Program-made: the position numbers and the translations under genes
Shown here: piece by piece, positions 25,830 to 53,048 of the stretch
Layout of the letters: every line of letters begins with the position of its first letter
How positions within the stretch are numbered: the first letter of the stretch is position 1
NCBI RefSeq assembly: GCF_001552075.1
Contig: NZ_BCQM01000007.1
Span: 124,001-188,000, forward strand
Length of the DNA stretch: 64,000 nucleotides
Source: Arthrobacter luteolus NBRC 107841
GTDB taxonomy: Bacteria; Actinomycetota; Actinomycetes; Actinomycetales; Micrococcaceae
Direction: 5' to 3'
Notes under the pieces: generated by a model
The model's input: the letters and a program-made list of their open reading frames with translations, nothing else
The model's database searches: none
Told to the model about the DNA's origin: nothing

Positions 25830-25876
25830 CCGGTTCTCAGGCGGTGCCGGTTCTCAGGCGGCCGGTTCTCCGGCGG
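25830..25876. repeat. Triple 15-bp direct repeat at the end of an amidohydrolase gene
   Basis: Three copies of CCGGTTCTCMGGCGG at 25830-25844, 25847-25861 and 25862-25876; the first two are identical and the third has one change. The array spans the 3' end and stop codon (25854-25856) of the minus-strand amidohydrolase and runs into the non-coding gap. It looks like a slippage-type duplication that may have moved the stop. Confidence 0.7.
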
Positions 25877-27542
25877 GCTGCCTCGCTGTCTGTGCTGCCG
25901 TGTCGAAGACGAGGCTGCCGGCGAACCAGGTTTGTTGCGCCGTGATGTTCCGGACCTCGTCGATGGGGATGGTGTACGGATCCGCGGACAGCAGGACGAA
26001 GTCTGCCGATTTACCCGGCGCCAGCGATCCAGCCACGTCCTCAATTCCCATCGCCTCGGCGCAGGCGGTGGTGTAGACGCGGATGGCTTCTTCGAGCGTG
26101 ATCGCCTGTTCGGGCCACAAGGCACCGGGGAACCCGCCCAGGGGATTCTGCCGGGTCACCAGCCCGTAGACGCCCTCCCAAACGTTCGGGGAAACACTCA
26201 CCGGCCAGTCGGATCCGCCGGCGATCCGGGCGCCGGCGTCCAGCAGCGAACGGTTGGGTTGCATCCGCGAAGCCCGTTCGGCTGGCAGCACCGTGGCGAT
26301 GGCTTCGGAAATCACCCCGGGGAACCACAACGACGGCGAGATATCGGCCGTGACGTTGAGCTCGGCAAAGCGGGCGATATCCTCCGGATGCACGAACTGG
26401 CCGTGCGCAATGTGGTACTTCGGCTTGTCCCAGCCTGCGGCCCGGACCTTCGCGACGGTATCCAGCACCAACCGCACGGAGGCATCTCCGGTGCAGTGGA
26501 TTTTCGCTGATATGCCGCGCGCAGCGGTTCCCAGCAGCCAGATTTCAAGGGCGTCCGCGTCGAGTGTGGTTTCCCCGCAGTGGCAGGCGGGGAAACCAGC
26601 GGACGGCAGGTAGGGCTCGATGAAGGCAGCTGTTCCGGCCGGCGGAACACCGTCAAGGAAGATCTTGATGAAATCCGGCCGGTGGTGGAGGCTGCGCAGG
26701 TCCCCGCGGTGAGCAATGATCCCCTCTCCCAGGGGCTCTGTTCCGAAGATGAAATCGTTCGCCTGCATGGACGTCACCACCCAGGCCTGCAGGGTGCCGG
26801 CGTCATCAAGTTCCTTGAGCGCCTGCATCAGCTGCAGGGAGGTGGCCGCGTCCTGGAATCCGGTGATGCCGTAGGAATGCAGGATCTCAATGCCGCGGGC
26901 CGCTGCCCGGGCCAGGTCCCCGGTGGAGACGGGCTGCAGCCGCGCCAGGGTCTTTTCCGCCAGTACGCCGGCAGCTTCGACCAGCACCCCGGTGGCCCGT
27001 CCGTCCGCGCTGCGCAGGATCTGCCCGCCGTCCGGGTCCGGTGTGTGGGCATCAATTCCGGCCAGCTTCAGTGCCGGCGAGTTGGCCCACCGGTTGTGTT
27101 TGCTGTCATCCTTCAGCAGCGCCGGGCGTCCGCCCGTTGCCGCATCAAAACGGGCAAGGGCCTCGGGGGTGCTGATGGCCTGCATCAGCCCGGCACCCCA
27201 GCTGCCGCCAAGCAGCCACTCGTCCGGTCCCAAACCGGCCGCGTACTCCGCGACGGCAGCCAGCAGTGAGTCGAGATCGAGTGTCGGAGGAACATCGAGC
27301 TCGAAAAGGTCCATCTGGCCGGCCAGCAGGTGGTGGTTGTGCACGTCCAGGAGACCCGGCATCACATATCCGCCTGCCAGGTCCAGCACCGCGGTGGACG
27401 GCCCCCGGGAGTCCAGGGCCTCCTCCCCCGCCGCCAGGACCTTCCCCCCGCTGACCGCCAGGGCATGTGTCCGTGGCATGCGGGCGTCAAGGGTGTCGAT
27501 GACGCCGTTGACCAAGAGCAGATCAGCCTGCTGTGAAACCAT
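25854..27542 (-). CDS. YtcJ-type metal-dependent amidohydrolase (first paralogue)
   Basis: 562 residues, amidohydrolase family 3 (N-substituted formamide deformylase/YtcJ type). The metal-binding HxH is His68/His70 in GLLDVHNH; further ligands sit in IHCTGDASV and IAHGQFVHPEDIARF, and a catalytic Asp in AGGSDWPVS near the end. The family hydrolyses C-N bonds in amides or cyclic amides. The ATG at 27542 has AAGGGGAAG upstream; an ATG at 27560 lacks one. It is the last of three minus-strand genes starting at 29695, and a distant paralogue of the gene at 29788. Substrate unknown. Confidence 0.87.
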   Translation of the reverse strand: MVSQQADLLLVNGVIDTLDARMPRTHALAVSGGKVLAAGEEALDSRGPSTAVLDLAGGYVMPGLLDVHNHHLLAGQMDLFELDVPPTLDLDSLLAAVAEYAAGLGPDEWLLGGSWGAGLMQAISTPEALARFDAATGGRPALLKDDSKHNRWANSPALKLAGIDAHTPDPDGGQILRSADGRATGVLVEAAGVLAEKTLARLQPVSTGDLARAAARGIEILHSYGITGFQDAATSLQLMQALKELDDAGTLQAWVVTSMQANDFIFGTEPLGEGIIAHRGDLRSLHHRPDFIKIFLDGVPPAGTAAFIEPYLPSAGFPACHCGETTLDADALEIWLLGTAARGISAKIHCTGDASVRLVLDTVAKVRAAGWDKPKYHIAHGQFVHPEDIARFAELNVTADISPSLWFPGVISEAIATVLPAERASRMQPNRSLLDAGARIAGGSDWPVSVSPNVWEGVYGLVTRQNPLGGFPGALWPEQAITLEEAIRVYTTACAEAMGIEDVAGSLAPGKSADFVLLSADPYTIPIDEVRNITAQQTWFAGSLVFDTAAQTARQPAGEPAA

Positions 27543-27590
27543 GTGTCTTCCCCTTTGCATTCCTCAACGGTTCGGGTTTCGCCGTCCGGG

Positions 27591-28568
27591 TCAGGGACCT
27601 TCGGGCGAAACCACGCCTTTGTCTGCCCAGAACGGCTCGGCGAGGCGGCGCAGTTCATCTGAACCTACCCGCTCCACCAGCTCTACTGCGGCAAGGTTGG
27701 AGCGCAGCTGTTCAACGCTGCTCGCACCGAACAGGGTGGTGGCGTTGGCGGGGTGGGTCAGGGTGAAGGCGATGCACAGCTGGGCCGGGGTGGTGCCGAG
27801 GTCACTGCTGAGCGCCTTGATGCCGGGAAAGCTGTCAATAATCCGATCCCGGATGCTGCCCGGGTCCCTGCCGACTTCCCGCCCCGGGTTCAGCTTGCCC
27901 GCCAGGATGCCGCCTTCCATCACATCGGATGCCTGCATGGTCAGGCCCTGCCGGAAGAGCGCCGCAAACGGTTCACCGTCGGCGATGGAACGGCGGGAGA
28001 GGCTGTACTTCAGCTGCGCCATCTGGGGACCGTTGACACCTTCCTCCGCTGCGATGTCCAAAAGCGCCTGGATGTTGCCGGCGGACCAGTTGTTAACCCC
28101 CCAGCACCCCAGCAGGCCGGATTCCTCGAGCTCCGCGAGATCCAGGACCAGCCGGCGCAGGTCGATGCCGTCCTTCCGCAGGTCCCCCAGCACGGCGATG
28201 TCCGCATGGTCCGTGCCGGCACGGAACAGGGCATTCTCCAGCTGCGCCCGCAGGCTCTGCTCCGGGTATCCCTCCAGCCAAAGCTTGGAGGAGAGCAGAT
28301 ACTGGTCCCGCTCCACACCTGCCGCCCGGATGATGGCTGAAAAGAGGACGTCGGTAAAGACCGGCGGCTGGTGTCCCGGAAAGCCGTAGACACCGACGTC
28401 GAACATGTTCAGGCCGTGGTCTGCGGCTTCACGGACCATGGCGACCGAATCGGAAAAATCCATGCGGTCGTAAATATGCCAGGAGCCCAGTGAAAGCACT
28501 GAGGCCATCGGCCCCTTAGTGCCGATCCGGCGTTTTGGCAGGAGGGTTGTTGAAGATGAAATGGTCAT
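27591..28568 (-). CDS. Aldo/keto reductase homologue lacking the tetrad His (first paralogue)
   Basis: 325 residues with an AKR barrel. Of the Asp-Tyr-Lys-His tetrad, Asp57 (NMFDVGVYG), Tyr61 and Lys95 (SSKLW) are present. The position of the catalytic His, in the strand that normally reads DLYxxH, is Gly128 (ADIAVLGDL). It shares unusual motifs with the gene at 31244: WGVNNW, QLKYS, and MQASDVMEGGILAGKLNP. The loss of His suggests altered chemistry or a binding role, as in AKR6 channel beta subunits; that is an inference. It sits between the alcohol dehydrogenase and an amidohydrolase, with gaps of 17 and 48 bases. Confidence 0.82.
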   Translation of the reverse strand: MTISSSTTLLPKRRIGTKGPMASVLSLGSWHIYDRMDFSDSVAMVREAADHGLNMFDVGVYGFPGHQPPVFTDVLFSAIIRAAGVERDQYLLSSKLWLEGYPEQSLRAQLENALFRAGTDHADIAVLGDLRKDGIDLRRLVLDLAELEESGLLGCWGVNNWSAGNIQALLDIAAEEGVNGPQMAQLKYSLSRRSIADGEPFAALFRQGLTMQASDVMEGGILAGKLNPGREVGRDPGSIRDRIIDSFPGIKALSSDLGTTPAQLCIAFTLTHPANATTLFGASSVEQLRSNLAAVELVERVGSDELRRLAEPFWADKGVVSPEGP

Positions 28569-28585
28569 TGTTGTTTCCTCACTCG

Positions 28586-29695
28586 CTAGGGCAGCCGCGG
28601 ATCGACGACGGCCTTGATCTGGTTGAGTTCCGACATGGCTGCCAGGGCTGCCGAGGCGCCCTGCAGGCCCACCGGTTCGCTGAAAAGCTCGTCCCAGGGC
28701 ATACGGCCGGCGAAGGTGGAGAAGAACTGGATGGCCCGGTAGTAGTCGGAAATATCGCCGTTCAGCGAACCAACCACGCTCAGTTCCTTCCCCATCACCA
28801 TGCCCAGCGGCACCTCGTTGTCCGCCGGTCCGGTGCTGCCCACCACCGCAACCGTGCCGCGCTGGGCTGCCATGGCGACAGCTTCCTTGCCAACGGAGGG
28901 TGCACCGGCGAAATCGAAGACATGATCTGCTCCCTTCCCGTCTGTCAGCTGCAGGACTTCCTGGACACAGGCGTCAGAGCCGAGGGCAACACTCACAGTG
29001 GCGTCGGCTCCAAACCGCCCGGCCATCCGCAGCCGCTCATCGGGGGCTCCAACGGTGATGACCTTTCCTGCGCCGGCAATCCGGGCGACTGCCGTGGCGA
29101 AGATCCCGAGCGCTCCGGCACCCTGCACCACTACCGTTGAGGCGGGCCGGATCCCGCCGACCCGGTCAAAGGACCGCAGCACCGTCTTGGCGGCGCAGCC
29201 GGCCATCGCCGCCCAGGTGTCCTTGACGTCGCCGGGCAGGAGAAGCTTGGCCGCGCCGGGCGTGACATAGCAGTGCTCAACCAGGCCGCCGGTAGCGTAC
29301 GGCCAGGTATCTGCCCGCTGGCGAAAGCCATAACCGCGGTCGCTGCAGGCAACCGGCTCGCGCAGTACCGTGCAACCAAAGCAGTTCCCGCAGGTGGACT
29401 CCGACCAGCCAATGCGGTCGCCGGCGGACAATGGACGACCCAGGGTATCCGCTGCGCCGTCACCCACAGCCACGATGGTTCCGACCATCTCGTGTCCCAG
29501 GACCATGGGCAGCATGCCTGGAAAAGTCATTCCCCCGGCCCAAAGATGGACGTCCGTGCCGCACAGCGTGGTGCACGTAATTTCAACCAGCGCGGCGCCT
29601 GGTTCCAGTTTGTCCGGCAGCGGAATGTCCTGAACCGCCAAGGCGGAACCGTGAGCCGTCAGGACGGCAGCACGGGTTGTTGCGGGAAGCGACAT
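28586..29695 (-). CDS. Zinc-dependent alcohol dehydrogenase (MDR superfamily)
   Basis: 369 residues. The catalytic-zinc region shows Cys45 in TLCGTDVH and GHE (67-69) in MVLGHEMVGTIVAVGDG. Four structural-zinc cysteines appear around residues 102-117 (CGNCFGC and VACSDRGYG). The nucleotide-binding fold is VVQGAGALGIFATAVA. It oxidises an alcohol or reduces a carbonyl with NAD(P)H. It is the first gene of a minus-strand unit; 48 bases upstream lies the operator at 29743, whose left half forms its probable -10. The gene is likely repressed by the TetR protein at 46980. Confidence 0.9.
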   Translation of the reverse strand: MSLPATTRAAVLTAHGSALAVQDIPLPDKLEPGAALVEITCTTLCGTDVHLWAGGMTFPGMLPMVLGHEMVGTIVAVGDGAADTLGRPLSAGDRIGWSESTCGNCFGCTVLREPVACSDRGYGFRQRADTWPYATGGLVEHCYVTPGAAKLLLPGDVKDTWAAMAGCAAKTVLRSFDRVGGIRPASTVVVQGAGALGIFATAVARIAGAGKVITVGAPDERLRMAGRFGADATVSVALGSDACVQEVLQLTDGKGADHVFDFAGAPSVGKEAVAMAAQRGTVAVVGSTGPADNEVPLGMVMGKELSVVGSLNGDISDYYRAIQFFSTFAGRMPWDELFSEPVGLQGASAALAAMSELNQIKAVVDPRLP

Positions 29696-29742
29696 GGTCC
29701 TTTTTCCTCCAAGGTATGGCGTGGGTCACGTAATTTGAAGTT

Positions 29743-29760
29743 AGTCTACATACGTTGACT
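29743..29760. promoter_or_regulatory. TetR-type operator A (adh/amidohydrolase divergent region)
   Basis: AGTCTACATACGTTGACT, an inverted repeat of the AGTCTAC-N4-GTAGACT type with one mismatch. On the minus strand its left half gives TAGACT as a -10 for the alcohol dehydrogenase unit. It also lies 27 bases before the plus-strand amidohydrolase start, so one site could control both directions. Confidence 0.75.
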
Positions 29761-29787
29761 GAAATCACCAGTGCCTTGGAGGCAAAA

Positions 29788-31194
29788 ATGGGCCAGACCC
29801 CGGCCGGACCCGGAATCCCTGCGGACCTCATCCTTCGCGGTGGATCCGTCATCACGATGGACGGCAGGAATTCCGAAGCCGAAGCCATAGCCGTGAGCGC
29901 CAACGAGATCGTCTTCGTCGGCTCCAGCCAGGACGCGATGCGTTTTGCGGGGAACAATACCCAGGTCATTGAACTGAACGGGAGGGCCGTTATCCCGGGC
30001 ATTAACGATTCGCACCTGCACGGGGCCTGGCTCGGTGCCCTCTGGCCGGACACCATCATCGGCGGGGCCGGCTTCCAGAGTCCGGCCGCCAGGCTCGAAA
30101 CCGGCGAAGACCGCCGGAATGCCATCCTGCGCACCGGCAGGCTGCTGGCCTCCCTGGGTATCACCAGCTACACCGAACCGGGGCTCGGCCCCGGCGAGGA
30201 CAACGGACCCACCGGCTGCTTCGGCAGCGGCGTCCTCGACGCCTACCGGGAACTGGCCGACGCCGGCGATCTGACCGCACGGGTCACGGTCCTGAACCTC
30301 TTCGGCGAGCTGGACGGAGCAAGCGACATTGAGTCATTCGAGCGCGGACTTCGCGGCTTCCGGCCCTACAAGGGGGACCAGAAATGGCTGCATCTCGCCG
30401 GGGTCAAGATTTTTGCGGACGGAATTCCTCCGATGCACAACGCCTGGACGCACCACTGCTATCCGGACGGGTCCTCCGGGGATCTCCTGGTCGATGGAAC
30501 CGACACCGCTGCCCGGGAGGGCAATCTTCGCCGGATGATCCTCAGTGCCCACGCCGCCGGTCACCAGATCGGTGTGCACGCCACGGGCGACCGGTCCATT
30601 GAAACCTTCCTGGAGGCGGTCGAATCCGCCGGCCCGGAAAGCGCCCGGGCAGCCAGGCACTATGTCATCCACGGAGACCTGATCAGCGGGGCGGCACTGG
30701 CACGGCTGGGCTCGCTCGGCATGGGCATCAACATCCAGCCCGGCATCGCCGTGGCCACCGCCCCAATGCTGGCCGGAGTTCTATCCGACCAGATTGCTGC
30801 CTCCTCCTGGCCCATCCTGTCCGCCATGGGCGGGCCGGCGAAACTCTGCCTGAGTTCGGACGCACCCGTCCTGTCCCCTGACTGGCGGCAGGGAATCGCC
30901 GCGGCGGGGGAATGGATCGGAACCGGCCACGGAATGGGGAACCGGGAACTGATGACCGGACTCCTGAAGTCCTACACCTCCCATGCGGCCTGGCAGGACA
31001 AAGCCGAGGCTTGGAAGGGCACCCTGGAGCCCGGCAAGGCCGCAGACCTCTGCGTCCTGGAGCATAACCCGCTGGAAGTCTCCCCCGGCGACCTTCCCGG
31101 GGTCCGGGTTGACCTGACCGTGGTCGACGGCCGCATTGTCTATGACCGGGAGTCCGCGGCCGGAGAGCCGGATTCAACCGTTGCGCATTTTTAG
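29788..31194 (+). CDS. YtcJ-type metal-dependent amidohydrolase (second paralogue)
   Basis: 468 residues, about 90 shorter than the paralogue at 25854. The N-terminal strand domain (LILRGGSVITMDGRN) leads to the metal-binding HxH, His76/His78 in PGINDSHLHG. Other family positions are HATGDRSIETFLEAVES, HGDLISGAALARLGSLGMGI and Asp in LCLSSDAPVLSP; ALEPGKAADL-type text (TLEPGKAADLCVLEHNP) near the end is typical. The ATG at 29788 has GGAGG five bases away; a TTG at 29755 is less likely because it lies inside the operator. It is followed by the second aldo/keto reductase homologue. Confidence 0.87.
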   Translation: MGQTPAGPGIPADLILRGGSVITMDGRNSEAEAIAVSANEIVFVGSSQDAMRFAGNNTQVIELNGRAVIPGINDSHLHGAWLGALWPDTIIGGAGFQSPAARLETGEDRRNAILRTGRLLASLGITSYTEPGLGPGEDNGPTGCFGSGVLDAYRELADAGDLTARVTVLNLFGELDGASDIESFERGLRGFRPYKGDQKWLHLAGVKIFADGIPPMHNAWTHHCYPDGSSGDLLVDGTDTAAREGNLRRMILSAHAAGHQIGVHATGDRSIETFLEAVESAGPESARAARHYVIHGDLISGAALARLGSLGMGINIQPGIAVATAPMLAGVLSDQIAASSWPILSAMGGPAKLCLSSDAPVLSPDWRQGIAAAGEWIGTGHGMGNRELMTGLLKSYTSHAAWQDKAEAWKGTLEPGKAADLCVLEHNPLEVSPGDLPGVRVDLTVVDGRIVYDRESAAGEPDSTVAHF

Positions 31195-31210
31195 TATACG
31201 GCCGTAGACT
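31193..31210. promoter_or_regulatory. TetR-type operator B (before the second AKR unit)
   Basis: AGTATACGGCCGTAGACT, same 18-bp pattern. It begins inside the stop codon of the amidohydrolase. Its right half TAGACT (31205-31210) is a plausible -10, with TTGCGC (31181-31186) as -35 at an 18-base spacing, for an internal promoter driving the AKR, MoaF-like and phosphotriesterase-like genes. Confidence 0.75.
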
Positions 31211-31243
31211 CAAAATTCACCGGTAGCCCAAGGAGGAACTATC

Positions 31244-32215
31244 TTGTCCGCAGAAACGAAAATGCCGCAAAGGAAACTTGGAGCGGATGGTCCGCTGGTC
31301 CCGGTCTATGGCCTGGGCTCCTGGAATACCTGGGACCGGATGGAGTTTGACGACGCCGTCGGAATCCTGCGGCGCTCCGTGGACGCAGGCGTCAATTTCT
31401 TCGACGTCGCCCACTACAACATGGGGCCGCACGCGGAACAGTCCACAACCGATCTGATCTTCGGTAAGGCCATCCGGGAAGCCGCCATTGCCCGGGAGGA
31501 CTACCTGCTCTGCGGCAAGCTCTGGCTCTGGGAATACCCCGCCGCGGGGTTCGCGGCCCAGCTCAACGAGTCGCTGGACCGGGTCGGCGTTGATAAGGCG
31601 GACCTCGTCGTCGTCGGCGACTATATGGAACGGCCAGACGTCCGGGCCATTGTCACCGAGGTTGCCGAGCAGGTCCGGGCCGGCCGGTTTGACGCCTGGG
31701 GGGTCAACAATTGGATTGCCGCCGACCTCCACCAGGCGATTGACTTCGCCCGTGCGGAAGGCCTGCCGGCACCCTGCTTCGCGCAGCTCAAATACAGCGT
31801 GGTCCGCCGAACGATGGCCGAGGGGCCCTTTTACCAGGAGCTCTTCGACTCCGGCAGCTTCGCTATGCAGGCCTCGGACATCCTCGAAGGCGGGATTCTG
31901 GCCGGAAAGCTGCACCCCGAGCGGAAGATCGGCGCCGACCCGGGTGGTATCCGCGGCGAAATCAGGGAGGCAGCAGCAGAGCTGGCGGAGATAGCCGGCA
32001 GCTTCAACACCTCGGCCCCGCAGCTGGCACTCGCTTTTTGCCTCGCCAACCCCGCCGTTGCCAATGTGCTGTTCGGGGTAAGCCGCCGCGAACAGCTGGA
32101 GGACAATCTGGCCGCGCTCGAGCTCTACCACCGGCACGGCAGCGCCCTCCGAGAGGCCGTTCAGCATCTGTGGGTTGATCGGGACAAAGTACAGGCAGAC
32201 GGCAGCTGGCTCTAG
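31244..32215 (+). CDS. Aldo/keto reductase homologue lacking the tetrad His (second paralogue)
   Basis: 323 residues. TTG start, strongly supported by AAGGAGG seven bases upstream. Asp54 and Tyr58 (NFFDVAHYN) and Lys92 (GKLW) of the AKR tetrad are present; the His position is Gly125 (ADLVVVGDYM). Motifs shared with the gene at 27591 (WGVNNW, QLKYS, MQASDILEGGILAGKLHP) show that the two form a subgroup of their own. It may still reduce a carbonyl with a changed proton relay, or bind NADP(H) without reducing. First gene of a tight four-gene unit under operator B. Confidence 0.82.
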   Translation: MSAETKMPQRKLGADGPLVPVYGLGSWNTWDRMEFDDAVGILRRSVDAGVNFFDVAHYNMGPHAEQSTTDLIFGKAIREAAIAREDYLLCGKLWLWEYPAAGFAAQLNESLDRVGVDKADLVVVGDYMERPDVRAIVTEVAEQVRAGRFDAWGVNNWIAADLHQAIDFARAEGLPAPCFAQLKYSVVRRTMAEGPFYQELFDSGSFAMQASDILEGGILAGKLHPERKIGADPGGIRGEIREAAAELAEIAGSFNTSAPQLALAFCLANPAVANVLFGVSRREQLEDNLAALELYHRHGSALREAVQHLWVDRDKVQADGSWL

Positions 32216-32239
32216 GCCGGCACTAAGGAGATCTTCAGC

Positions 32240-33064
32240 ATGCGAACAACCCAGAACCCCGCAGATACCTCGACCTGGCTGCCCCTGGACGGCCTGGCCC
32301 CGGGATTCGATGCGAACAAGGCGCCGCTGTCCGGTACCCTCGCCGGACGCTGGATCAACCTGACCATGGCCGACGGAACCCGGATCGCGCACAAATTCGG
32401 CACGGAGTCCGTCGCCTGGAGCTTCCAGCCTCCCGGGCATGCCGTGCAGGAAGGCGAAGATCCCTATGAGGCCTTCGAGGTTGCCCCTGGGCTCTTTTAC
32501 GCACAGTTCCAGCATGTCTCGTCGCCCGGGGAAGCGGTTTCACTCTTCCTGGACCTGGACAGCGGCCGTGCTCTCTCTGTCATCTCGACCATCGGCACAG
32601 CTTCCCCGGCCCAAACGGCCGTGGGCCAGCAGTTCATCACCGGAACCATCGACGGCGCTGAGGTGGAAGGCAGCGAACCGGCTCCTTCCACGGCTCTGGT
32701 CGGAGGCCGCGTCCTGTGGGAGTACAGCACTGAACATGCCTACGAACATCTCTATCTGAGCCCGCGCTGGTACACCTGGCAGTGCCTGTCCGGGCCGGAG
32801 CGCGGCCTCGCGGACACCGATCAGCAAACCACCTATCAGCTGCGCCCAGGCATCTTCGTCTTCGCGTGGCGGGAGAAAGTGGTGCCGTGTGCGGCAGTCA
32901 CGGTGGCGGACCACCGGGACGCCGCGGCGCTCCGCTCCCACGGCAGCCTGTTCGGGCTTCACCAGGACGGCAGCCAACCGGTGCATTTCACCTTTGGTGC
33001 CCACGGGCGGCTGCTCAGCCGGACAACCCACCCGGCAGCCTTCGATCCCGCGCGTAGCTGGTAG
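32240..33064 (+). CDS. MoaF-like (calycin-fold) protein
   Basis: 274 residues. Two halves match the MoaF family: GRWINLTMADGTRIAHKFGT in the N-terminal part, and VLWEYSTEHAYEHLYLSPRW, TWQCLSGPERGLADTDQQ and IFVFAWREKVVPCAAVTVAD in the C-terminal part. MoaF was named from a molybdenum/monoamine context, but no biochemical role is firmly known; its fold is related to lipocalins and phenolic acid decarboxylases. The ATG follows AAGGAG. It lies 24 bases after the AKR gene and 3 bases before the phosphotriesterase-like pair, so it probably belongs to the same degradative route. No molybdenum cofactor genes are nearby. Confidence 0.8.
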   Translation: MRTTQNPADTSTWLPLDGLAPGFDANKAPLSGTLAGRWINLTMADGTRIAHKFGTESVAWSFQPPGHAVQEGEDPYEAFEVAPGLFYAQFQHVSSPGEAVSLFLDLDSGRALSVISTIGTASPAQTAVGQQFITGTIDGAEVEGSEPAPSTALVGGRVLWEYSTEHAYEHLYLSPRWYTWQCLSGPERGLADTDQQTTYQLRPGIFVFAWREKVVPCAAVTVADHRDAAALRSHGSLFGLHQDGSQPVHFTFGAHGRLLSRTTHPAAFDPARSW

Positions 33065-33067
33065 CCC

Positions 33068-35208: not shown

Positions 35209-35235
35209 CAGAGGGAACGGTCCGGCGAACGGACA

Positions 35236-36009: not shown

Positions 36010-36018
36010 CCGCCGGCG

Positions 36019-37023: not shown

Positions 37024-37095
37024 GGGTCCTAGACCTTTCGTTAATGCGGTGCCGCCTGGTTCTGAAGGCCCGGAAACGGGCGCGGCCGTGGCAGG

Positions 37096-37113: not shown

Positions 37114-37159
37114 CCTGATGTCCAGAGATCCAGCCGGGAAGTGAGGGTGCTGGTTTTTG

Positions 37160-37177
37160 CGTCTACGTGCGTATACT
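37160..37177. promoter_or_regulatory. TetR-type operator D (before the SDR gene)
   Basis: CGTCTACGTGCGTATACT, the same pattern with one outer base changed. Its right half TATACT (37172-37177) is a good -10 for the plus-strand SDR gene, 51 bases before the start codon. Operators C and D, 64 bases apart, serve the two divergent units. Confidence 0.75.
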
Positions 37178-37228
37178 CTAAACCCCATGCGCTGCACGCG
37201 GCCGCGCTGGAAGGGGGAATAACCGCAG

Positions 37229-37963: not shown

Positions 37964-38027
37964 GCCACCACCGTCCACAGCCAGCCGTCCTCCGAAAAAA
38001 CAAAGACGTAGAGAAAGGCAAGATCCG

Positions 38028-39035: not shown

Positions 39036-39073
39036 CGGACCCGGACAACCGGCCCACGTTCAAGGAGGCAGCA

Positions 39074-40060: not shown

Positions 40061-40118
40061 CCTCCCCCTTTCCGCCGCCCGTCCGGGTCCTCGGCCAGGC
40101 CGTCAGAAACAGGAACCC

Positions 40119-41345
40119 ATGTCTTCCCCTTCCGTCACTACTGTCCCGGCCCACGGCATGAGCAAACGCCGAATCGTCCTGGTCCTGGGCGCCCTTGAAG
40201 CTTTCGGCCCGCTCTCCATGGACCTGTACATGCCGGCGCTGCCCCATCTGGCTGAGTCACTGCAGACGACCGACACCCTGGCCCAAACCACCATGTCCGT
40301 ATGCATGATCGGGCTGGGTGCCGGCCAGCTCATCGCCGGACCGCTGAGTGACCGGTTGGGGCGCCGGCGTCCGCTTCTGGCGGGCATCGCGCTGTTTACC
40401 GTCTTCTCGCTTGCCTGCGCCTTTGCACCAACCATCGAGCTGCTCCTGCTGGCACGGTTCCTGCAGGGCCTCGCCGGGGCCGCCGGCGTCGTCATCGCCC
40501 TGGCCGTGGCCCGCGACCTGTTCAGCGGCATTGAACTGTCCCGGATGCTGTCGCTGCTCGCCCTCGTCGGCTCCTCCGCCCCGATCATCGCTCCCGTCCT
40601 CGGCGGCCAGCTGGCCCGGGTGATGGACTGGCGCGGAATGTTCGGGATCCTGGCGCTGATCGGAGCCCTCATTCTGCTCCTGGCTGCCGTCTCGCTGCAG
40701 GAGACACACCCCGCACACCGGCGCACCACAGAGGGCATCCGGGTGACCGTGCGGCAGTTCGGCCTGCTGTTCCATGACCGGTTGTTTGTCCTGCTGCTTG
40801 TGACGTCGGCCGCTGGCGGCGTCGGCTTCTTCACCTACCTGTCGATGTCCAGCTTTGTGCTGCAGAACGAATTCGGGCTGACTCCACAGCTGTTCAGCTT
40901 CGTGTTTGCCGCAAATGCGCTGTCCAGCATGGCCGGCGCGCAGATCAGCAGGTTCCTGGTGGCGCGGCTCGGTCCGGCCAGAATGTATCTGCTGGGGTAC
41001 GGGCTCACCCTGCTGGCAGCCGCCGCCCTGTTCACCGGCGCGGTGCTCGCCGCGCCTCCGGGTCTCCTGCTGATATTCCTTGCCGGCTACCTCATGACCA
41101 GTGGCATGGTTTCGCCGAATACGACCACACTGGCGATGGACCGCCACCGCGAGCGGGCCGGTACGGCCGCTGCGCTCTTTGGGACGGCATCCTTTGTGGT
41201 GGGTCCGGTCATAGCGCCGCTTGCCGCGCTCAGCGGTGCGACGGCGGCGGCCATGGGTGCGATGATTGCCGGCGCCGTCGCCTGCGCGGCTCTGCTGGCG
41301 TTCCTGTGGGTTCGTCCCCTCCTGCGGAGCTCCGTCTCCGGGTAG
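40119..41345 (+). CDS. Bcr/CflA-type MFS exporter
   Basis: 408 residues with 12 predicted membrane segments. Family markers: FGPLSMDLYMPALPHLAESL at the first segment, IGLGAGQLIAGPLSDRLGRR with the MFS loop 2-3 motif, and FLQGLAGAAGVVIALAVARD in segments 4-5. Proton-driven drug or metabolite efflux is the family role. I chose the ATG at 40119, with AGGAA just upstream. It is the last gene of the SDR-esterase unit, followed by a strong terminator; it may export the compound or a toxic intermediate. Confidence 0.88.
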   Translation: MSSPSVTTVPAHGMSKRRIVLVLGALEAFGPLSMDLYMPALPHLAESLQTTDTLAQTTMSVCMIGLGAGQLIAGPLSDRLGRRRPLLAGIALFTVFSLACAFAPTIELLLLARFLQGLAGAAGVVIALAVARDLFSGIELSRMLSLLALVGSSAPIIAPVLGGQLARVMDWRGMFGILALIGALILLLAAVSLQETHPAHRRTTEGIRVTVRQFGLLFHDRLFVLLLVTSAAGGVGFFTYLSMSSFVLQNEFGLTPQLFSFVFAANALSSMAGAQISRFLVARLGPARMYLLGYGLTLLAAAALFTGAVLAAPPGLLLIFLAGYLMTSGMVSPNTTTLAMDRHRERAGTAAALFGTASFVVGPVIAPLAALSGATAAAMGAMIAGAVACAALLAFLWVRPLLRSSVSG

Positions 41346-41395
41346 GCCCCGGGCAGGACCCGCCGCCGCCCCAGCCGACGATGGTCTGAGCGGAC

Positions 41396-41427
41396 GTTTG
41401 TCTGAGGGAATGTTTGTCTGAGGGAAT
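41396..41427. repeat. Tandem 16-bp duplication
   Basis: Two exact copies of GTTTGTCTGAGGGAAT, head to tail, between the exporter stop and the terminator. No coding role is evident. It may be a slippage duplication. Confidence 0.8.
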
Positions 41428-41436
41428 GTTAAACCG

Positions 41437-41471
41437 AAAAGCACCGGGAACCTGAGGTTCCCGGTGCTTTT
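41437..41471. terminator. Bidirectional intrinsic terminator
   Basis: Perfect 16-bp stem AAAAGCACCGGGAACC / GGTTCCCGGTGCTTTT with a 3-base TGA loop. A-tract and T-tract on the two sides make it a rho-independent terminator in both directions, separating the exporter unit from the convergent ABC transporter unit. Confidence 0.93.
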
Positions 41472-41492
41472 CCTTCCGCTGACTGGTGGCTT

Positions 41493-42371
41493 TCAGTTTC
41501 CGGCCACAGCCAGCGCCTCCGGCTCCTTCCGGAGCGCAAGCCACTCCTGCCGGCGTCGTCGCTGGGCCTCCGGGTTGGCGATGGGCGAGGCCATCAGCAG
41601 CCGCCGCGTATAGGGATGCTGCGGATCCGTGGTGACCTGGTGTCCGCTGCCGGTCTCAACCAGCTTGCCCCGGTACATCACCGCGACCCGGTGGCAGACG
41701 CGGCGCACAACACCGAGGTCATGGGTGATGAACAGGTAGGAAACACCGGTATCGCGCTGCAGTTCAATGAACAGGTCAAGTATGGACGCCTGGGTGGTCA
41801 GGTCCAGCGCGCTGACCGGTTCATCACAAATAATCAGGCGCGGTTTCCGGACCAGTGCGCGCGCGATCGCAATGCGCTGGCGCTGCCCGCCGGAAAACTC
41901 GCGCGGATACCGGTCGACCACGCCGGCGGGCAGTTTGACCCGGTCCAGCATCTCCTTCACCGCGGCATCCGCGCCGCGGCGCTCCAACCCGGAACTCGTG
42001 AGCGGCTCAGCCAGGATCTGCCCGATCGTCATGCTCGGGTCGAGGGATCCGTACGGGTCCTGGAACACCACCTGGATGCTTGAGGACAGCTTGCGCCGTT
42101 CCGGCCTCCGAAGGTGCGTGATGTCGCGTCCGTCGAAGGAGATCCGGCCGTCCGTGACCGGGACCAGCCCCAGGACCGCCTTGCCCAGCGTGGATTTTCC
42201 GGACCCGGATTCACCCACCAGGCCAAGGCATTCACCGGGCTTGATCTCCAGTGAAACGTCATCCAGCGCACGGAAGTTTCTGCGCCCGGACAGGGAATAG
42301 TCGATGGCCAGGTTGTCGACGGACAGCAGCGGGCCGGCTGCGTCCGCCGCTGGGTCGGGCTTCGGGGTCAT
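41493..42371 (-). CDS. Oligopeptide-type ABC transporter ATPase (DppF/OppF class)
   Basis: 292 residues. Walker A GESGSGKST (about 53-61), signature FSGGQRQRIAIARAL, Walker B LIICDEPVSALD and the H-loop FITHDLGVV. The C terminus carries the family-specific tail DPQHPYTRRLLMASP, which distinguishes OppF/DppF ATPases. It energises uptake through the permeases encoded upstream. Its start overlaps the stop of the permease-ATPase fusion by four bases. It is the last gene of the minus-strand transport unit. Confidence 0.92.
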   Translation of the reverse strand: MTPKPDPAADAAGPLLSVDNLAIDYSLSGRRNFRALDDVSLEIKPGECLGLVGESGSGKSTLGKAVLGLVPVTDGRISFDGRDITHLRRPERRKLSSSIQVVFQDPYGSLDPSMTIGQILAEPLTSSGLERRGADAAVKEMLDRVKLPAGVVDRYPREFSGGQRQRIAIARALVRKPRLIICDEPVSALDLTTQASILDLFIELQRDTGVSYLFITHDLGVVRRVCHRVAVMYRGKLVETGSGHQVTTDPQHPYTRRLLMASPIANPEAQRRRRQEWLALRKEPEALAVAGN

Positions 42372-44194
42372 GCGCGTGCCGCCTTTCGCTGGTCAGGGGT
42401 GCCGTCCGGATCCAGTCTGGTTGCCGGGTCCGTCAGGCGGTAGTCATCGTCGAGCTCGCTGCGGGTGGCCGCATCGTCCAGGGAGGCGGCGATGAGTTCG
42501 CGGGTGTAGTCACTTTCCGGGGCACTGAAGATTGTCGAAACGTCTCCCGCTTCCACGATCCGGCCGTCTTTCATCACCACAACGCGGTCGCAGATGTCCG
42601 CAACAACCCCAAAGTTGTGCGTCACGATGATCAGTGCCATCCCGTACTCCTGCTGCAGTTCACGCAGCAGTTCCAGCACTTCGGCCTGGACGGTGACGTC
42701 CAACGCCGTCGTCGGCTCGTCCGCCACCAGCACCGAGGGCTTGGCCGCGATGGCGCCGGCGATCAGGACCCGCTGGGCCATACCGCCGGAGAGCTGGTGG
42801 GGGTAGGACCGCATAACCCGCGCAGGATCCGCGATGCCGACCTTTTCCAGCATCAGCACCGCCCGCTGCCGGGCGTCCGCCCGGCTGAGCCTGTGCACGG
42901 TGCGCAGCGGTTCCATCAGCTGATAACCAATGGTGTAGGACGGGTCCAGGTTGGTCATGGGTTCCTGCGGAATATAGCCCAGCACACCGCCCAGCAGCCT
43001 GTGCCGTTCCTTGCGGCTCTTGGAACTGATGTCCGCTCCGCCGATCCACAGCGCGTCCATGGTGGCGGCGCCGCCGGCCGGCAGCAGGTCCAGGATGGAG
43101 AAGACCGTCTGGGACTTTCCGGAACCGGATTCCCCGACAATACCGAGGACCTCCCCGGGCGCTACCTGCACGGAAATCCCGTGGACTACTTCAATGTCGG
43201 TTTCCGCACCCGGGTAGCTCACCCTGAGGTTCTCCAGGGACACTGCGGCTGCGGCCGACGCCGGTGACGGCGCTGCTTCCGCAGCGGGTGCGTTGGCGCG
43301 GCGCGGACGCCGGACGCGCTTTGCCACCGGAGTGCGCACGCTCACGACGTCGCCAAGGGTCGAGCCCATAACCGCCAGCGCGGCAATGGAAATACCCAGG
43401 GCGAGTGAGGGCCACAGCAGCAGCAGCGGATCGGTCAGCATTACACGGAAGCCCTCGTTCATCATGGCGCCCCAGCCCGGGTCCTTGGCTCCCCCGATGC
43501 CCAGGAACTGCAGGCCGGCCTGCATCCCCATCGCCATCCCGGCCGTCAGGGCCGTCTGGATGATGATCGGTGCGTACACGGCCTGGACCACGTGCCGGGC
43601 AATGATCCGGCCGTTGGACAGCCCGGCAACCAGGGCGGCGTCGATATACGGTTCGTTCCGGACCGTCATCGTGGTGGACCTGGTGAGCCGGAAATAGCCC
43701 GGCGCCATAAATACGCCCACCGTAACCATGATGAGGTTGAAGTCGTTCCGGGTGGCGGCGGCGACGATGAGCAGGATGATCATGCCGGGCACTGCCTGCA
43801 GCGCGTCACTGATCCAGGTGGCAATCCGGTCGAAGGTCCCGCCGAAGTAGCCCGCAGCCAGTCCGGCCGGAACACCGATGCCCAGGGACACCAGGATCGA
43901 GATCGCGGCTCCGATCAGCGTGAGCCGGGCTCCGTAGATCAGCCGGCTGAGAATGTCGCGGCCGTTGGCGTCACCGCCCAGCCAGTGTTCCGGACCCGGC
44001 GGCGCCTTGGCGATCGACAGGTCTACGAAGTTGGGATCATGCGGCGCCAGCCAGGGGGCAAAAACCGCGACCAGGACAATGACGGCGAAGACGGCGGCGG
44101 AGGCCGCGCCCGACGGACGGCGGATGAACCGGGCGAACAGGGAGCCCCGGCGGGGTCCGCGGGCATCCAGCGGGTTAACGATGGGAGCTGTCAT
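42368..44194 (-). CDS. ABC transporter permease (DppC-like) fused to ATPase (DppD-like)
   Basis: 608 residues. Residues 1 to about 295 are a DppC-type permease: RRPSGAASAAVFAVIVLVAV, GTDANGRD-like WLGGDANGRDILSRLIYG and an EAA region with ALVAGLSNGRIIARHV. Residues about 320-608 are a DppD-type ATPase with Walker A VGESGSGKSQT (about 353), signature LSGGMAQRVLIAGAI and Walker B VLVADEPTTALD. Such fusions are known in actinobacteria. The ATG at 44194 overlaps the stop of the upstream permease gene; an open extension upstream is a shadow of that gene. Together with the next genes it forms the importer of the regulon. Confidence 0.9.
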   Translation of the reverse strand: MTAPIVNPLDARGPRRGSLFARFIRRPSGAASAAVFAVIVLVAVFAPWLAPHDPNFVDLSIAKAPPGPEHWLGGDANGRDILSRLIYGARLTLIGAAISILVSLGIGVPAGLAAGYFGGTFDRIATWISDALQAVPGMIILLIVAAATRNDFNLIMVTVGVFMAPGYFRLTRSTTMTVRNEPYIDAALVAGLSNGRIIARHVVQAVYAPIIIQTALTAGMAMGMQAGLQFLGIGGAKDPGWGAMMNEGFRVMLTDPLLLLWPSLALGISIAALAVMGSTLGDVVSVRTPVAKRVRRPRRANAPAAEAAPSPASAAAAVSLENLRVSYPGAETDIEVVHGISVQVAPGEVLGIVGESGSGKSQTVFSILDLLPAGGAATMDALWIGGADISSKSRKERHRLLGGVLGYIPQEPMTNLDPSYTIGYQLMEPLRTVHRLSRADARQRAVLMLEKVGIADPARVMRSYPHQLSGGMAQRVLIAGAIAAKPSVLVADEPTTALDVTVQAEVLELLRELQQEYGMALIIVTHNFGVVADICDRVVVMKDGRIVEAGDVSTIFSAPESDYTRELIAASLDDAATRSELDDDYRLTDPATRLDPDGTPDQRKAARA

Positions 44195-45132
44195 TTCACG
44201 CGCGCTTTCGGGTTGATCCAGCCGAGGACGACGTCGAGCAGGAAGTTGACGATCACCACGAAGGCCACGGAGATAACGGTGATGCCAAGCAGGATGGGAA
44301 TGTCGCCGTTCTGGGAGGAACCATTGGTCATGGCCCCGATGCCGGGCAGGGCAAAGACCTGCTCGACGACGATGGCTCCGCTGAGCAGTGCAACGAACAT
44401 CAGGGCCAGGATGGTGATCGACGCCGGCGCAGCGTTGCGCAGCAGGTGGACCACCACGCGTGTCTGGGAGAGCCCCCGGCTGCGCAGGGTTCGGACGAAG
44501 TCCTGTCCGTTGACCGAGATAAAGGCGTTGCGCAGCTGCTCCGCAATCATCACGACCGCGCCGAGGGCCAGGGACACCGCGGGCAGCGTGATCGACCGCA
44601 GCCAGCCCTCGATGGACATCGTGGGCTGGACGTAGCCGACGGCGGGGAACCACTTCAGGTTCACTCCGAACCAGATCACCAGCACCAGGCTGACCCAGAA
44701 GCCGGGCAGTGCGAACAGGACAACCGCTGCCGCTTTGACCAGCTTGTCGATGATGGTTCCGGGGTTGAGTCCCGCCAGGACCCCCAGCAGGCCGCCGAAA
44801 ACTGCTGAAAGCAGAATCGCGGCGGCAACCACGGACAGGGTCACCGGCAGTTTCGTGGCGATCTGGGCCGTCACCGGCTGGAAGTTGCGCCAGGAGTCGC
44901 CGAAGTCTCCGAGGACGGCGTGCCGGGCCCAGTCGGCGAACTGCACCAGCACCGGGCGGTCGATGCCGATCTTCTCGGCCAGTGCGGCCTGCTGGGCGGG
45001 GGTGGCCGAGTTGCCGAGCAGCCCGGCCGTCGGGTCGCCGATGGCGAGGTGGGCCAGGAAGAAGGTTCCGGTAGCCACCACCACGAGCAGGATGATGCCC
45101 GAGGCAAGCCGCTTGAGTGTAAATCTGAGCAT
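44191..45132 (-). CDS. Oligopeptide-type ABC transporter permease (DppB class)
   Basis: 313 residues with six membrane segments. Typical N terminus LKRLASGIILLVVVATGTFF followed by the extracytoplasmic loop with the DPTAGLLGNSATPAQQAALA segment; the EAA loop includes RTLRSRGLSQTRVVVHLLRN. It pairs with the permease half of the next gene to form the channel. It lies 65 bases after the binding-protein gene, with a strong hairpin between, and overlaps the next gene by four bases. Confidence 0.92.
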   Translation of the reverse strand: MLRFTLKRLASGIILLVVVATGTFFLAHLAIGDPTAGLLGNSATPAQQAALAEKIGIDRPVLVQFADWARHAVLGDFGDSWRNFQPVTAQIATKLPVTLSVVAAAILLSAVFGGLLGVLAGLNPGTIIDKLVKAAAVVLFALPGFWVSLVLVIWFGVNLKWFPAVGYVQPTMSIEGWLRSITLPAVSLALGAVVMIAEQLRNAFISVNGQDFVRTLRSRGLSQTRVVVHLLRNAAPASITILALMFVALLSGAIVVEQVFALPGIGAMTNGSSQNGDIPILLGITVISVAFVVIVNFLLDVVLGWINPKARVK

Positions 45133-45154
45133 GTAGTGTCCTTCAAAGTACGGC

Positions 45155-45186
45155 GGCGGGAGGGCGGCCGCAGCGGCCCTCCCGCC
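45155..45186 (-). promoter_or_regulatory. Intercistronic hairpin after the binding-protein gene
   Basis: Inverted repeat GGCGGGAGGG / CCCTCCCGCC (extended by one C-G pair) around a 10-base loop, in the 65-base gap between the binding protein and permease genes. No T-run follows. Like the hairpin at 3063, it probably stabilises the binding-protein message or reduces read-through (inference). Confidence 0.6.
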
Positions 45187-45197
45187 ACCAAGGGGTT

Positions 45198-46721
45198 CTA
45201 GCCCTTGACGCTGATCTGGCGCAGCGTCGGGAACATCATTCCGGTAACCGGGGTCACCTCAATGTTTTCCGCACTGACATAGCTGTTGTTTGCCTGGTAG
45301 AAGACGGAGAACCAGGCCTTGTCGGTCACCAGCCGGTTGAGCGTCTCGACCTCTGCCAGCTGGTCCGCCGGCGCCGCCGTCAGGACCTTCTCCACCTGGG
45401 CCTGAACCTCGGGGAACTTGTCCATCTGCGGGTTCGGGTTGTACCACTGCGGGGTGGAGATCTGGCGAAGGACGTTGGCCACGGGGTGGGAATCCATCGA
45501 CAGGAAGGAGACGAACATCGGGTAGGTGGCGGCCTTGGTCTGGTAGTCCATGTACTGCATGTCTTCCCAAGTCACCTTGATACCCAGCTCTCCGAAGACC
45601 TGGTCGACCGAGGGCTGCCAGACCTGGAAGACCTGCGACATCGGCATGGTGATGTCGAAGCCGTCCGCGTAGCCGGCGTCGGCCAGCAGTTTTTTGGCCT
45701 TGTCCAGGTTCACGGCGTACTGCTCATCGATCTCCGCGACGTGGCCGGGCATACCGAACGGGAAGACCTGGTTGGTCGGTTCGCCGGCGCCACTGCCAAG
45801 GGTGCCGAGGATTTCAGCGCCGTTGAACGCGTAGTTCAGGGCCTGGCGGACCCGCTCGTCACCCAGCGGTTCGAAGGAGTCTCCGGCCCGGTCGGTGAAC
45901 TGCAGGCCCACCCATCCGGAGACCTTCTTGGCTACGTTCCAGCTGTTCGCTTCTGCCTGGTCGAGGGCGGCCTGGTCGGCGTAATTGAGATTAACCTGCC
46001 CGGAAAGCATGGCGTTATTGCGTGCCGTGGCATCCTGGATCGGATAAATCGCCAGCGGTTCGAACTTGAACTGATCGGCAGCCCAGTGATCGGCGACCTT
46101 GTCGAAGTGGTATTCGGCGCCGGCGACACTGGACGATGCCATGGTGTAAGGGCCGGATCCGACGGGTGCCTCGGCAAGTGTGCCGGATTCAATGGCCTTG
46201 GGAGACATCATGTAGCTGCGGCCGAGTCCCATGAAGTACAGCAGGGTGTCATCCCGCTCGGCGAGGTTGATTTCGATGGTGTCTTCATCGACAGCTTCGA
46301 AAGAATCAACCGACAGGTAGGCCTCCTGGGAGCGCGCACCTTCTTTGAGGTATTCAAGGCTCGCCACTGCAGCGTCTGCATTGAAGGGCTCCCCGTCGCT
46401 GAAGACCGCATCCGTTCGCAGCTCCATTGTGACGGTCAGGAAATCCTCGGAGACCTCCCATTCAGTGGCGAGGGCGGGGGTGGGGTTTCCGTCCGTGTCC
46501 ACGCCCAGCAGGGGATCATAGACAGCGGACAGGTACGGGCCGTCGAAGCCGATGTCGGCGAGGGACGGGTCCCAGGACGTGACGTCGGCAAACTCGCCGA
46601 TATTCAGGGGTACGTTGCCGCCAGCCGCTTCGGCATTGCCGTTGTTGTCGCCACCGCTGGAGCAAGCGGACAGCGCGAGTGCTGAGACAGTCAGGAGTGC
46701 TGCTGTCGTTGCCTTTTTCAT
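45198..46721 (-). CDS. SBP_5-type ABC transporter substrate-binding lipoprotein
   Basis: 507 residues. Signal peptide with lipobox LSAC, lipid-anchored Cys20. The mature part is an SBP_5 (oligopeptide/nickel/glycoside-type) protein: SWDPSLADIGFDGPYLSAVYD, GDPTPALATEW-like PTPALATEWEVSEDFLTVTM, FSDGEPFNADAAVASLEYL and NYAFNGAEI. Family members bind peptides but also opines, sugars and plant compounds, so the ligand is open. I chose the ATG at 46721, preceded by GAGAAG. First gene of the importer unit; operator E lies 138 bases upstream over its probable promoter. Confidence 0.9.
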   Translation of the reverse strand: MKKATTAALLTVSALALSACSSGGDNNGNAEAAGGNVPLNIGEFADVTSWDPSLADIGFDGPYLSAVYDPLLGVDTDGNPTPALATEWEVSEDFLTVTMELRTDAVFSDGEPFNADAAVASLEYLKEGARSQEAYLSVDSFEAVDEDTIEINLAERDDTLLYFMGLGRSYMMSPKAIESGTLAEAPVGSGPYTMASSSVAGAEYHFDKVADHWAADQFKFEPLAIYPIQDATARNNAMLSGQVNLNYADQAALDQAEANSWNVAKKVSGWVGLQFTDRAGDSFEPLGDERVRQALNYAFNGAEILGTLGSGAGEPTNQVFPFGMPGHVAEIDEQYAVNLDKAKKLLADAGYADGFDITMPMSQVFQVWQPSVDQVFGELGIKVTWEDMQYMDYQTKAATYPMFVSFLSMDSHPVANVLRQISTPQWYNPNPQMDKFPEVQAQVEKVLTAAPADQLAEVETLNRLVTDKAWFSVFYQANNSYVSAENIEVTPVTGMMFPTLRQISVKG

Positions 46722-46859
46722 GCGTTCTTCTCTCATTGCCAGTGGAGTGACGCCTGCAGGCCGGCCCGTCGACCAGCCCGCATGGTCCATTGTCCGAACG
46801 GGGCCCCACGGCCGCAGTGTCCGTGTGCTGTGGATCACTTTGCGACTCGTTGTGGGGTA

Positions 46860-46877
46860 AGTCTACAGTTGTTGACT
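46860..46877. promoter_or_regulatory. TetR-type operator E (before the ABC importer unit)
   Basis: AGTCTACAGTTGTTGACT. On the minus strand TAGACT (46860-46865) is a -10 and TTGATT (46882-46887) a -35, 16 bases apart. The rest of the 258-base gap between the binding-protein start and the TetR stop holds no gene that I can see. Confidence 0.8.
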
Positions 46878-46979
46878 AGAAAATCAAGCACTGTTTTCGG
46901 GGTGCTGGCAGGGGCTAAACGGGCAGCAGAAAACCGCCCTCAGCCGGGGTGAAAGGCGGGCTGTGCGGGCCTTGGGAGG

Positions 46980-47582
46980 CTAGGCGGCCGGGGACCGCGT
47001 GATGCGGTCAAAGAAGGAATCAAGGTGCCGGTGCTGCAGTTCAACCGTGGAAAAGTCCGGCCCCACAAGGCTCATGATGTTTGCACCAGCGTTGAGCAGA
47101 ACCAGTTCGTCAACCAGCTGTTCGTCGGATTCGGGGGACACAATGTCGCCGTCCTCGCGGCCCTGGCGGATGTACTCACGCAGGGAATTCCGCCACCGCA
47201 TCAGGTGCGCCTGGTACACCTCGAACAGCGCTTCCTTCGACAGGGACAGTTCCCAGAACGCCAGCAGGACCCGGCCGGCGGTAATCCGCTCCTCATCCAG
47301 GGGCATGGCTGCCAGCGTGAACTGCCGCAGCGCGTCCAGCCCGGTCTTGTCGCCGAGCGCCGCAGCCACATGGGACTCCATGATCTTCAGGGCCCGCTGG
47401 TAGGTGGCCTCCACAATCACGTCTTTGCTGTCGAAATACCGCTTGAGAGCTCCGTTGGCGAAGCCTGCCTCCTTGGCAATTTCCCGCATGGTGGCTGCTT
47501 CCAGTCCGCCCTTGACGATGAGGTTCCAGGTGACATCGAGAATGTCCTGGCGGCGCTGATCGCGGTCAATCACCTTGGGCAT
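46980..47582 (-). CDS. TetR-family regulator (probable master regulator of the island)
   Basis: 200 residues. N-terminal TetR helix-turn-helix: RRQDILDVTWNLIVKGGLEA, TMREIAKEAGFANGALKRYF, with the DSK-VIVEATY continuation into helix 4. The C-terminal ligand domain is variable and resembles BetI/AcrR-type regulators. It lies at the end of the island, just upstream of the importer unit on the same strand. The five 18-bp inverted repeats at 29743, 31193, 37096, 37160 and 46860 have size and symmetry expected of TetR sites, and a half-site copy lies 55 bases before its own start. Its control of the regulon is inferred, not shown. Confidence 0.88.
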   Translation of the reverse strand: MPKVIDRDQRRQDILDVTWNLIVKGGLEAATMREIAKEAGFANGALKRYFDSKDVIVEATYQRALKIMESHVAAALGDKTGLDALRQFTLAAMPLDEERITAGRVLLAFWELSLSKEALFEVYQAHLMRWRNSLREYIRQGREDGDIVSPESDEQLVDELVLLNAGANIMSLVGPDFSTVELQHRHLDSFFDRITRSPAA

Positions 47583-53044: not shown

Positions 53045-53048
53045 GGGG

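Follow-up and report, generated by a model that had tools for sequence, protein, structure and literature searches.

Does the TetR-family regulator encoded at one end of a catabolic gene island in Arthrobacter luteolus NBRC 107841 govern the genes beside it, and through which operator? The island lies in a stretch of 64,000 nucleotides (the window; contig NZ_BCQM01000007.1, positions 124,001 to 188,000, or G000:C7:124001-188000 in our numbering of this 3.92-Mb genome), and all positions below are window positions unless a contig (C) or locus (L) handle precedes them, handles beginning with G denoting genomes. The original prediction, made from the letters of the window, had proposed that copies of an 18-bp inverted repeat, AGTCTAC-N4-GTAGACT, each in front of a different transcription unit, place about 17 genes under this regulator. 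Re-annotation with Pfam and NCBIfam gave a close count, namely 18 genes in six units, plus the adjoining tetR (46980-47582, minus strand) if it is self-regulated. The comparisons reported here make it very likely that the island TetR acts through the shared dyads as a local catabolic regulon, because TetR, enzyme cluster and motif co-occur across Actinobacteria, and the motif marks the heads of operons but is missing from their interiors.

When up to three mismatches were allowed, the pattern matched the window exactly five times, at the predicted positions (with 0, 1, 1, 1 and 2 mismatches among the five), while 100 dinucleotide shuffles of the window gave a mean of 0.48 matches and a maximum of 3, none reaching five. 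The predicted operators stand 21 to 72 bp ahead of start codons and cover all six units, within which genes are separated by ≤ 65 bp. AGTCTACATACGTTGACT (29743-29760, assigned to neither strand) lies between the divergent units amh1-akr1-adh (minus) and amh2 (plus), AGTATACGGCCGTAGACT (31193-31210, plus) precedes akr2-moaF-pte1-pte2 (plus), AGTCTACGGTCGTAGACT (37096-37113, minus) precedes the unit abh-omt (minus) on its omt side, CGTCTACGTGCGTATACT (37160-37177, plus) precedes sdr-hsl1-hsl2-mfs (plus), and AGTCTACAGTTGTTGACT (46860-46877, minus) is found 21 bp ahead of sbp in the ABC importer operon oppF-oppCD-oppB-sbp (minus). Two details depart from the original proposal: 29743 lies between two divergent units, and the site at 31193 runs over the amh2 stop codon.

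Scans of the whole genome were run with consensus patterns. They returned 28 sites with ≤ 3 mismatches, and the island holds all four of those with ≤ 1 and five of the six with ≤ 2; the 22 three-mismatch sites all lie off the island and represent background (reversed-pattern control: 47), and the lone off-island two-mismatch site (C3:125879) falls within open reading frames on both strands. The original prediction depended on the motif not being common elsewhere in the genome, and at ≤ 1 mismatch it occurs on the island alone. With TMWAC-N4-GTWKA, the core consensus derived from other loci, 14 sites were obtained, the five of the island and nine others (reversed control: nine). Scored with a matrix of 28 sites from other genomes (the other-genome matrix; these sites were themselves found with a matrix built from the window's five sites, here called the window matrix, so that its ranking of window sites is not independent), the nine off-island sites reached at most 16.7 bits (C2:241372, in a called open frame) and the island sites 20.4-27.8 bits; a random 3.9-Mb sequence held two sites of ≥ 15 bits. 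The candidate operator is confined to linked putative target genes, as in a local regulon.

The same element emerged from relatives when the window motif was withheld. All 5-mer dyads with gaps of 0-12 were searched for in 11 other loci that had not been selected by the motif, leaving out L012 and L013 (near-copies of L011), L016, L018, G112 and G067. TCTAC-N4-GTAGA ranked first and was present in 27 of 35 head regions and none of 39 inner regions, head and inner classes being taken from the unit structure of the window itself. With the motif-found G460 contig and the akr1 rows that are akr2 included, the counts were 30/38 and 2/44, and 20 shuffled sets, a control belonging to this run, peaked at 8-13. 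In addition, the 200 bp before genes in 17 other loci were scored with the window matrix against dinucleotide shuffles of the same regions, and 57 of 128 regions reached p ≤ 0.01, counts that are not independent since a single site serves both genes of a divergent pair in the tally and three of the loci come from near-identical Agromyces (four regions were excluded: hsl1 and hsl2 of L014, which arose from an indexing fault, and akr1 of L017 and L019, which is akr2 again). At this threshold, sites preceded the unit-head genes omt (9/13), akr2 (9/10), sdr (8/9), adh (9/9), amh2 (8/10) and tetR (7/17), as well as abh (3/9), which shares the gap with omt; sbp had none (0/2), and sites close to its start were seen in G165, G090 and G459. 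Genes that are internal in the window lacked a site at p ≤ 0.01 in these loci (moaF 0/6, amh1 0/8, mfs 0/4, oppF 0/5). The operator is thus kept at orthologous promoters, for example in the place of 29743 in G165, G090, G925, G773, L011-L013, L017, L019 and G460.

Several relatives extend this picture beyond a single cluster. Among nine of them, 21 of the 33 sites with ≤ 2 mismatches lay in the cluster or fronted homologs of its genes. As a test of the prediction, G459 was reached via omt (no TetR match at E ≤ 1e-45), and its locus proved to hold a TetR of 41% identity, with sites of 15-21 bits close to the amh2 start, close to the sbp start (two) and in the akr2/sdr gap, and a 9-bit site at omt. 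The TetR contig of G460 has no other island genes, and its cluster, with three sites, is on a separate contig. Off the main cluster of G090, sites front a second sbp and a phosphotriesterase-family gene, and on other short contigs of G112, which may or may not be linked to the cluster, they front sbp, pte1 and amh2/adh. Conversely, an Embleya cluster (amh2, adh, akr1, akr2, omt, sdr, abh) lacks a TetR match within its 41 kb, and none of its sites exceeds 9 bits; the search of its plasmid record, the one replicon covered, likewise gave no TetR match at E ≤ 1e-25. Island-type sites were also seen in G112 by an MFS transporter gene and before AsnC-type regulator, polysaccharide-deacetylase and AAT-family genes (L053:3678-3695 and L054:5827-5844), and these genes are possible further members of the regulon.

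Among the 29 genomes of the genus, this TetR occurred only in the own genome; three others had matches at E ≤ 1e-20 with 35-37% identity, and the 28 other genomes had neither a TetR match above 37% identity nor a site with ≤ 1 mismatch. At E ≤ 1e-45, TetR was found in 6 of 395 genomes of the family, 3 of 396 of the order and 4 of 394 of the class, the own genome being counted each time. In named genomes 12 TetR loci were found, nine of them at 46-64% identity (Agromyces, Prescottella, Specibacter, Amycolatopsis, Leucobacter), and in seven of these nine omt adjoins TetR, in six together with most other enzymes; beside the TetR of L016 stand moaF and amh1 alone, and L018 has no island genes. Judging by this distribution, the system looks sparse and was probably moved horizontally.

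The operator also appears to travel with each gene during rearrangement. In G165 and G090, akr2 and sdr share one site that reads AGTATAC...GTAGAC facing akr2 and GTCTAC...GTATACT facing sdr. In the window the two genes are apart, with 31193 in the akr2 orientation and 37160 in the sdr orientation, and in G925, where a GH1-family gene parts akr2 from sdr, there are again two sites, oriented as in the shared one. Since the separated genes each have their own copy in the orientation of the shared site, the operator would have stayed with each of them, which would clearly illustrate how a regulon is maintained while its genes are rearranged. At adh, the distal arm is TCAAC and the proximal arm GTAGA in all nine sites listed.

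The regulator itself has 200 amino acids, is presumed to repress the island, and exceeds the cut-offs of TetR_N (PF00440, 52.6 bits, cut-off 24) and TetR_C_6 (PF13977, 50.9 bits, cut-off 27), while its residues 1-191 match 2nx4 (E 7.2e-35). It remained under the cut-off of all 18 listed NCBIfam models, including those for BetI (55.9 of 118 bits, NF001978; 53.1 of 201.3, TIGR03384) and KstR (43 of 280, NF033703). The recognition helix AGFANGALK was present in 18 of 18 aligned island-type rows and recurs in a paralog of the own genome. This paralog (C8:10930-11520), 32-33% identical overall, has a near-identical helix (AGFANGALKPYF vs. AGFANGALKRYF), and the imperfect dyad TTTCTATGACTGTAGAGA (TTTCTAT-N4-GTAGAGA, 5/7 arm positions paired; C8:10815-10832, L049:1816-1833) sits between it and the genome's only copper amine oxidase gene found, the two genes being divergent; the dyad scored 13.6 bits with the other-genome matrix and 2.9 with the window matrix. 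A second Agromyces TetR (34-36% identity, helix AGYAHGAIA) faces AGTCACC-N4-GGTGACT, which has the same layout with different inner bases; the dyad is perfect at L012:9020-9037 and L013:9169-9186. These paralogs and their dyads support the idea that such dyads may be read directly by this TetR type, and the second Agromyces TetR and the island TetR possibly form a natural specificity-change pair. No dyad of this kind was seen for three more paralogs (L002-L004). The Leucobacter TetR relative of L018, which has neither cluster nor nearby island-type site, is preceded at L018:9740-9782 by a perfect inverted repeat of 20 bp around a 3-base loop.

The claim that one half of the repeat doubles as the -10 box, with a -35 box 16-18 bases away, was convincing at omt, where 37096 provides the -10 of TGGACA-N17-TAGACT on the minus strand (9/12 promoter positions; 1.2 equally good sites expected by chance in 29000-48000), but only plausible at the other window sites (7-8 of 12), as 160 of 400 random anchors reach ≥ 7 of 12, 20 reach ≥ 8 and 1 reaches 9. 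Among 49 site-gene pairs, the gene-facing arm is TAGACT, TAGAAT, TATACT or TATAAT in 28, which fits a predicted role as -10 box, and 12 have a -35 box of ≥ 4/6 at 16-18 bp, vs. 7.1% of 1960 null places. The omt promoters stand out, 7/9 having a -35 of ≥ 4/6, six as TNGAC(A/T) with N17. In the mechanism that we propose, the TetR dimer would bind the 18-bp dyad, with core TCTAC-N4-GTAGA, before the six units and possibly its own gene; with the gene-facing arm acting as -10 box, the bound dimer would shut out RNA polymerase, and TetR would be freed from its operator by an inducer, either the compound taken up or something formed in its breakdown. The sites, their positions, their conservation at operon heads and their co-occurrence with this TetR are observed; binding, repression and ligand release we infer from what is known of the TetR family.

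Other readings of the sites have to be weighed against this one. Another regulator could read them, for instance the C8 paralog, alone or jointly with the island TetR, and its near-identical recognition helix and the related imperfect dyad beside it would suit such a role; however, that protein is 32-33% identical to the island TetR overall, the three genus relatives with TetRs of 35-37% identity have no site with ≤ 1 mismatch, and the island-type site accompanies the island-type TetR and its neighbour genes, which makes this very unlikely. Still harder to sustain, to the point of being extremely improbable, is the idea that the repeats are not operators but conserved parts of promoters, or palindromes that arose by chance: one half does fit a -10 box at many sites and the omt promoters mostly retain a -35 at N17, but dyad symmetry with a fixed N4 is no promoter feature, both arms are conserved, the internal genes have no dyad, and the Embleya enzyme cluster without TetR is also without it. 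A less remote, though still unlikely, alternative is that TetR is an activator, or that the units have extra regulators and the sites account for just part of their regulation, since the direction of control is not readable from sequence and the mostly weak -35 boxes suit activator-dependent promoters or another sigma factor. The sites nevertheless coincide with the presumed -10, where repressors usually bind, and TetR proteins are often repressors (PMC4482099).

A local regulon governed by the island TetR remains the reading we prefer, and the following points weigh against it. The relative loci were found via the window's own proteins and are not a random sample. The dyad is absent from 8 of the 35 head regions (four in G459, three in G485 and one in G324), and G485, which has the cluster and a 44% TetR, has 0/6 regions at p ≤ 0.01 and only three-mismatch sites, by amh2 and sbp. 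In the upstream test the Agromyces loci were without an omt site, and L016 and L018, in which TetR is present (60% and 46% identity), have no nearby site above 7 bits. The loose pattern alone is unspecific, as the other 12 of the 33 sites in the nine relatives lie elsewhere and the reversed pattern gives 34. The -35 boxes are mostly poor (12/49 at ≥ 4/6). Finally, the degenerate copy that had been proposed before tetR is present (CGTCTACAGACAAAGACG, 47637-47654, minus, 54 bp ahead of the gene) but marginal, being the sixth best window match with the window matrix (11.5 bits) and the seventh with the other-genome matrix (7.3 bits), which ranks a site at 15516 higher (11.7 bits), so that it is a weak candidate for autoregulation. 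The latter site (TGTATTCGACTGTATACA, 15516-15533) is the top non-island window match to the other-genome matrix. An exact-match scan of viral contigs returned 68 stretches.

The gene content of the units agrees with a catabolic role. The first unit comprises amh1 (25854-27560), an Amidohydro_3 hydrolase with 32.7% identity to a plasmid protein annotated as nfdA, N-substituted formamide deformylase, the aldo/keto reductase gene akr1 (27591-28568) and the zinc-type alcohol dehydrogenase gene adh (28586-29695), all on the minus strand. On the plus strand follow amh2 (29789-31194), a further Amidohydro_3 hydrolase whose start was picked from a GGAGG upstream of ATG, akr2 (31244-32215), an aldo/keto reductase with AKR6D1 as closest solved relative, the MoaF-family gene moaF (32240-33064), and the phosphotriesterase-family hydrolases pte1 (33068-34138) and pte2 (34135-35208), the latter nearest to 3k2g, followed by 9efa ("phosphotriesterase-related protein"). 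Minus-strand frames at 31217-32515, 32540-33964 and 34039-35103 had no Pfam or NCBIfam match and were discarded for these plus-strand frames, which give the aldo/keto reductase, MoaF and two phosphotriesterase-family proteins. The minus-strand genes abh (35236-36009) and omt (36019-37023) encode an alpha/beta hydrolase and an O-methyltransferase-fold protein (Dimerisation and Methyltransf_2), and the plus-strand genes sdr (37229-37963), hsl1 (38028-39035), hsl2 (39074-40060) and mfs (39948-41345) a short-chain dehydrogenase, two hormone-sensitive-lipase-type esterases and a Bcr/CflA-type MFS transporter. The minus-strand importer consists of oppF (41493-42371; ABC ATPase), oppCD (42368-44653), oppB (44191-45132; ABC permease) and sbp (45198-46838; SBP_bac_5 solute-binding protein), and the real starts of mfs and oppCD are probably more internal to their open frames. 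In oppCD an OppC-type permease is fused to an OppD-type ATPase, and unbroken matches were also found in G459, G485, G165 and Prescottella L014. Outside the island, a Na+/H+ antiporter (Na_H_antiport_1) is joined to a thioredoxin/DsbA-like domain at 22705-24531, and isochorismatase-like and hydantoinase B genes lie past the island at 50553-53218, with no site of ≤ 3 mismatches.

Taken together, an importer, esterases, amidohydrolases, phosphotriesterase-type hydrolases, reductases and dehydrogenases fit the import of a compound with ester or amide bonds and its degradation step by step; our guess would be an esterified natural product that bears an amide or amine group. Relatives in the PDB, plasmid matches and the literature gave no substrate identity. 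The entry 9efa we take to be PTER. PTER is reported as an N-acetyltaurine hydrolase (PMC11374699). The likeness of amh1 to nfdA and of pte2 to PTER, together with amine oxidase neighbours, points weakly to amide or amine chemistry: moaF-amh1 has a copper amine oxidase gene as its neighbour in G925, Agromyces L011 and G773, as does amh1 in Leucobacter L019, and one is found near the second TetR in Prescottella L014. Upstream of those in G925, L011, G773 and L019 no site was found, the best score being -1.5 bits, which counts against the amine idea; as sites are lacking at amine oxidase, moaF and amh1 in relatives, this module can be placed in the regulon in the window only, and the subfamily reading given below becomes less probable. 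Deoxynivalenol-type toxins, considered from the AKR6D1/DepB kinship of akr2, and chloramphenicol, for which the hsl likeness was far under the curated score, were not adopted as substrates. Tentatively, and with more doubt than conviction, one may imagine a TetR subfamily, defined by the helix AG[FY]ANGALK and an operator of 7-N4-7 with a TCTAy core, that controls a so far undescribed pathway of Actinobacteria for an amide- or amine-bearing natural product, its operator arms tuned as -10 boxes and moving with the genes, the C8 amine oxidase locus and the island perhaps being one split pathway. For this TetR there is now a precise predicted operator, together with a list of putative targets and a set of conserved enzymes. 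The substrate can therefore be searched for, and any compound lifting TetR from the 37096 site would name the pathway.

The kind of control proposed here is that of an ordinary local TetR regulon, and the pathway is without description in a limited literature search, which found no published account of motif or cluster and outside of which most subscription journals fell. KstR, KstR2 and BetI are TetR-family local catabolic regulators, and the island system resembles them in a protein of about 200 amino acids with an N-terminal helix-turn-helix, a short palindromic operator and neighbouring uptake and breakdown targets, but differs in its operator, TCTAC-N4-GTAGA, and in its target genes. Closer in gene content is the plasmid pTC2 of Paenarthrobacter aurescens TC1, in which a TetR (35% identity) lies by a copper amine oxidase, an amidohydrolase (40% to amh1) and a MoaF-like protein (29%), and which also has an imperfect dyad, TTTCTATACTTGTAGATA, upstream of its TetR (15.1 bits with the other-genome matrix, 0.9 with the window matrix); unlike the island, its 12.6 kb hold no further island-protein match at E ≤ 1e-10, and its function is likewise predicted. 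McbR of Corynebacterium glutamicum, a TetR-type regulator of sulfur metabolism, has the related half-site letters TAGAC and GTCTA, and is set apart from the island regulator by the opposite order of the arms, the N6 spacing and the sulfur role.

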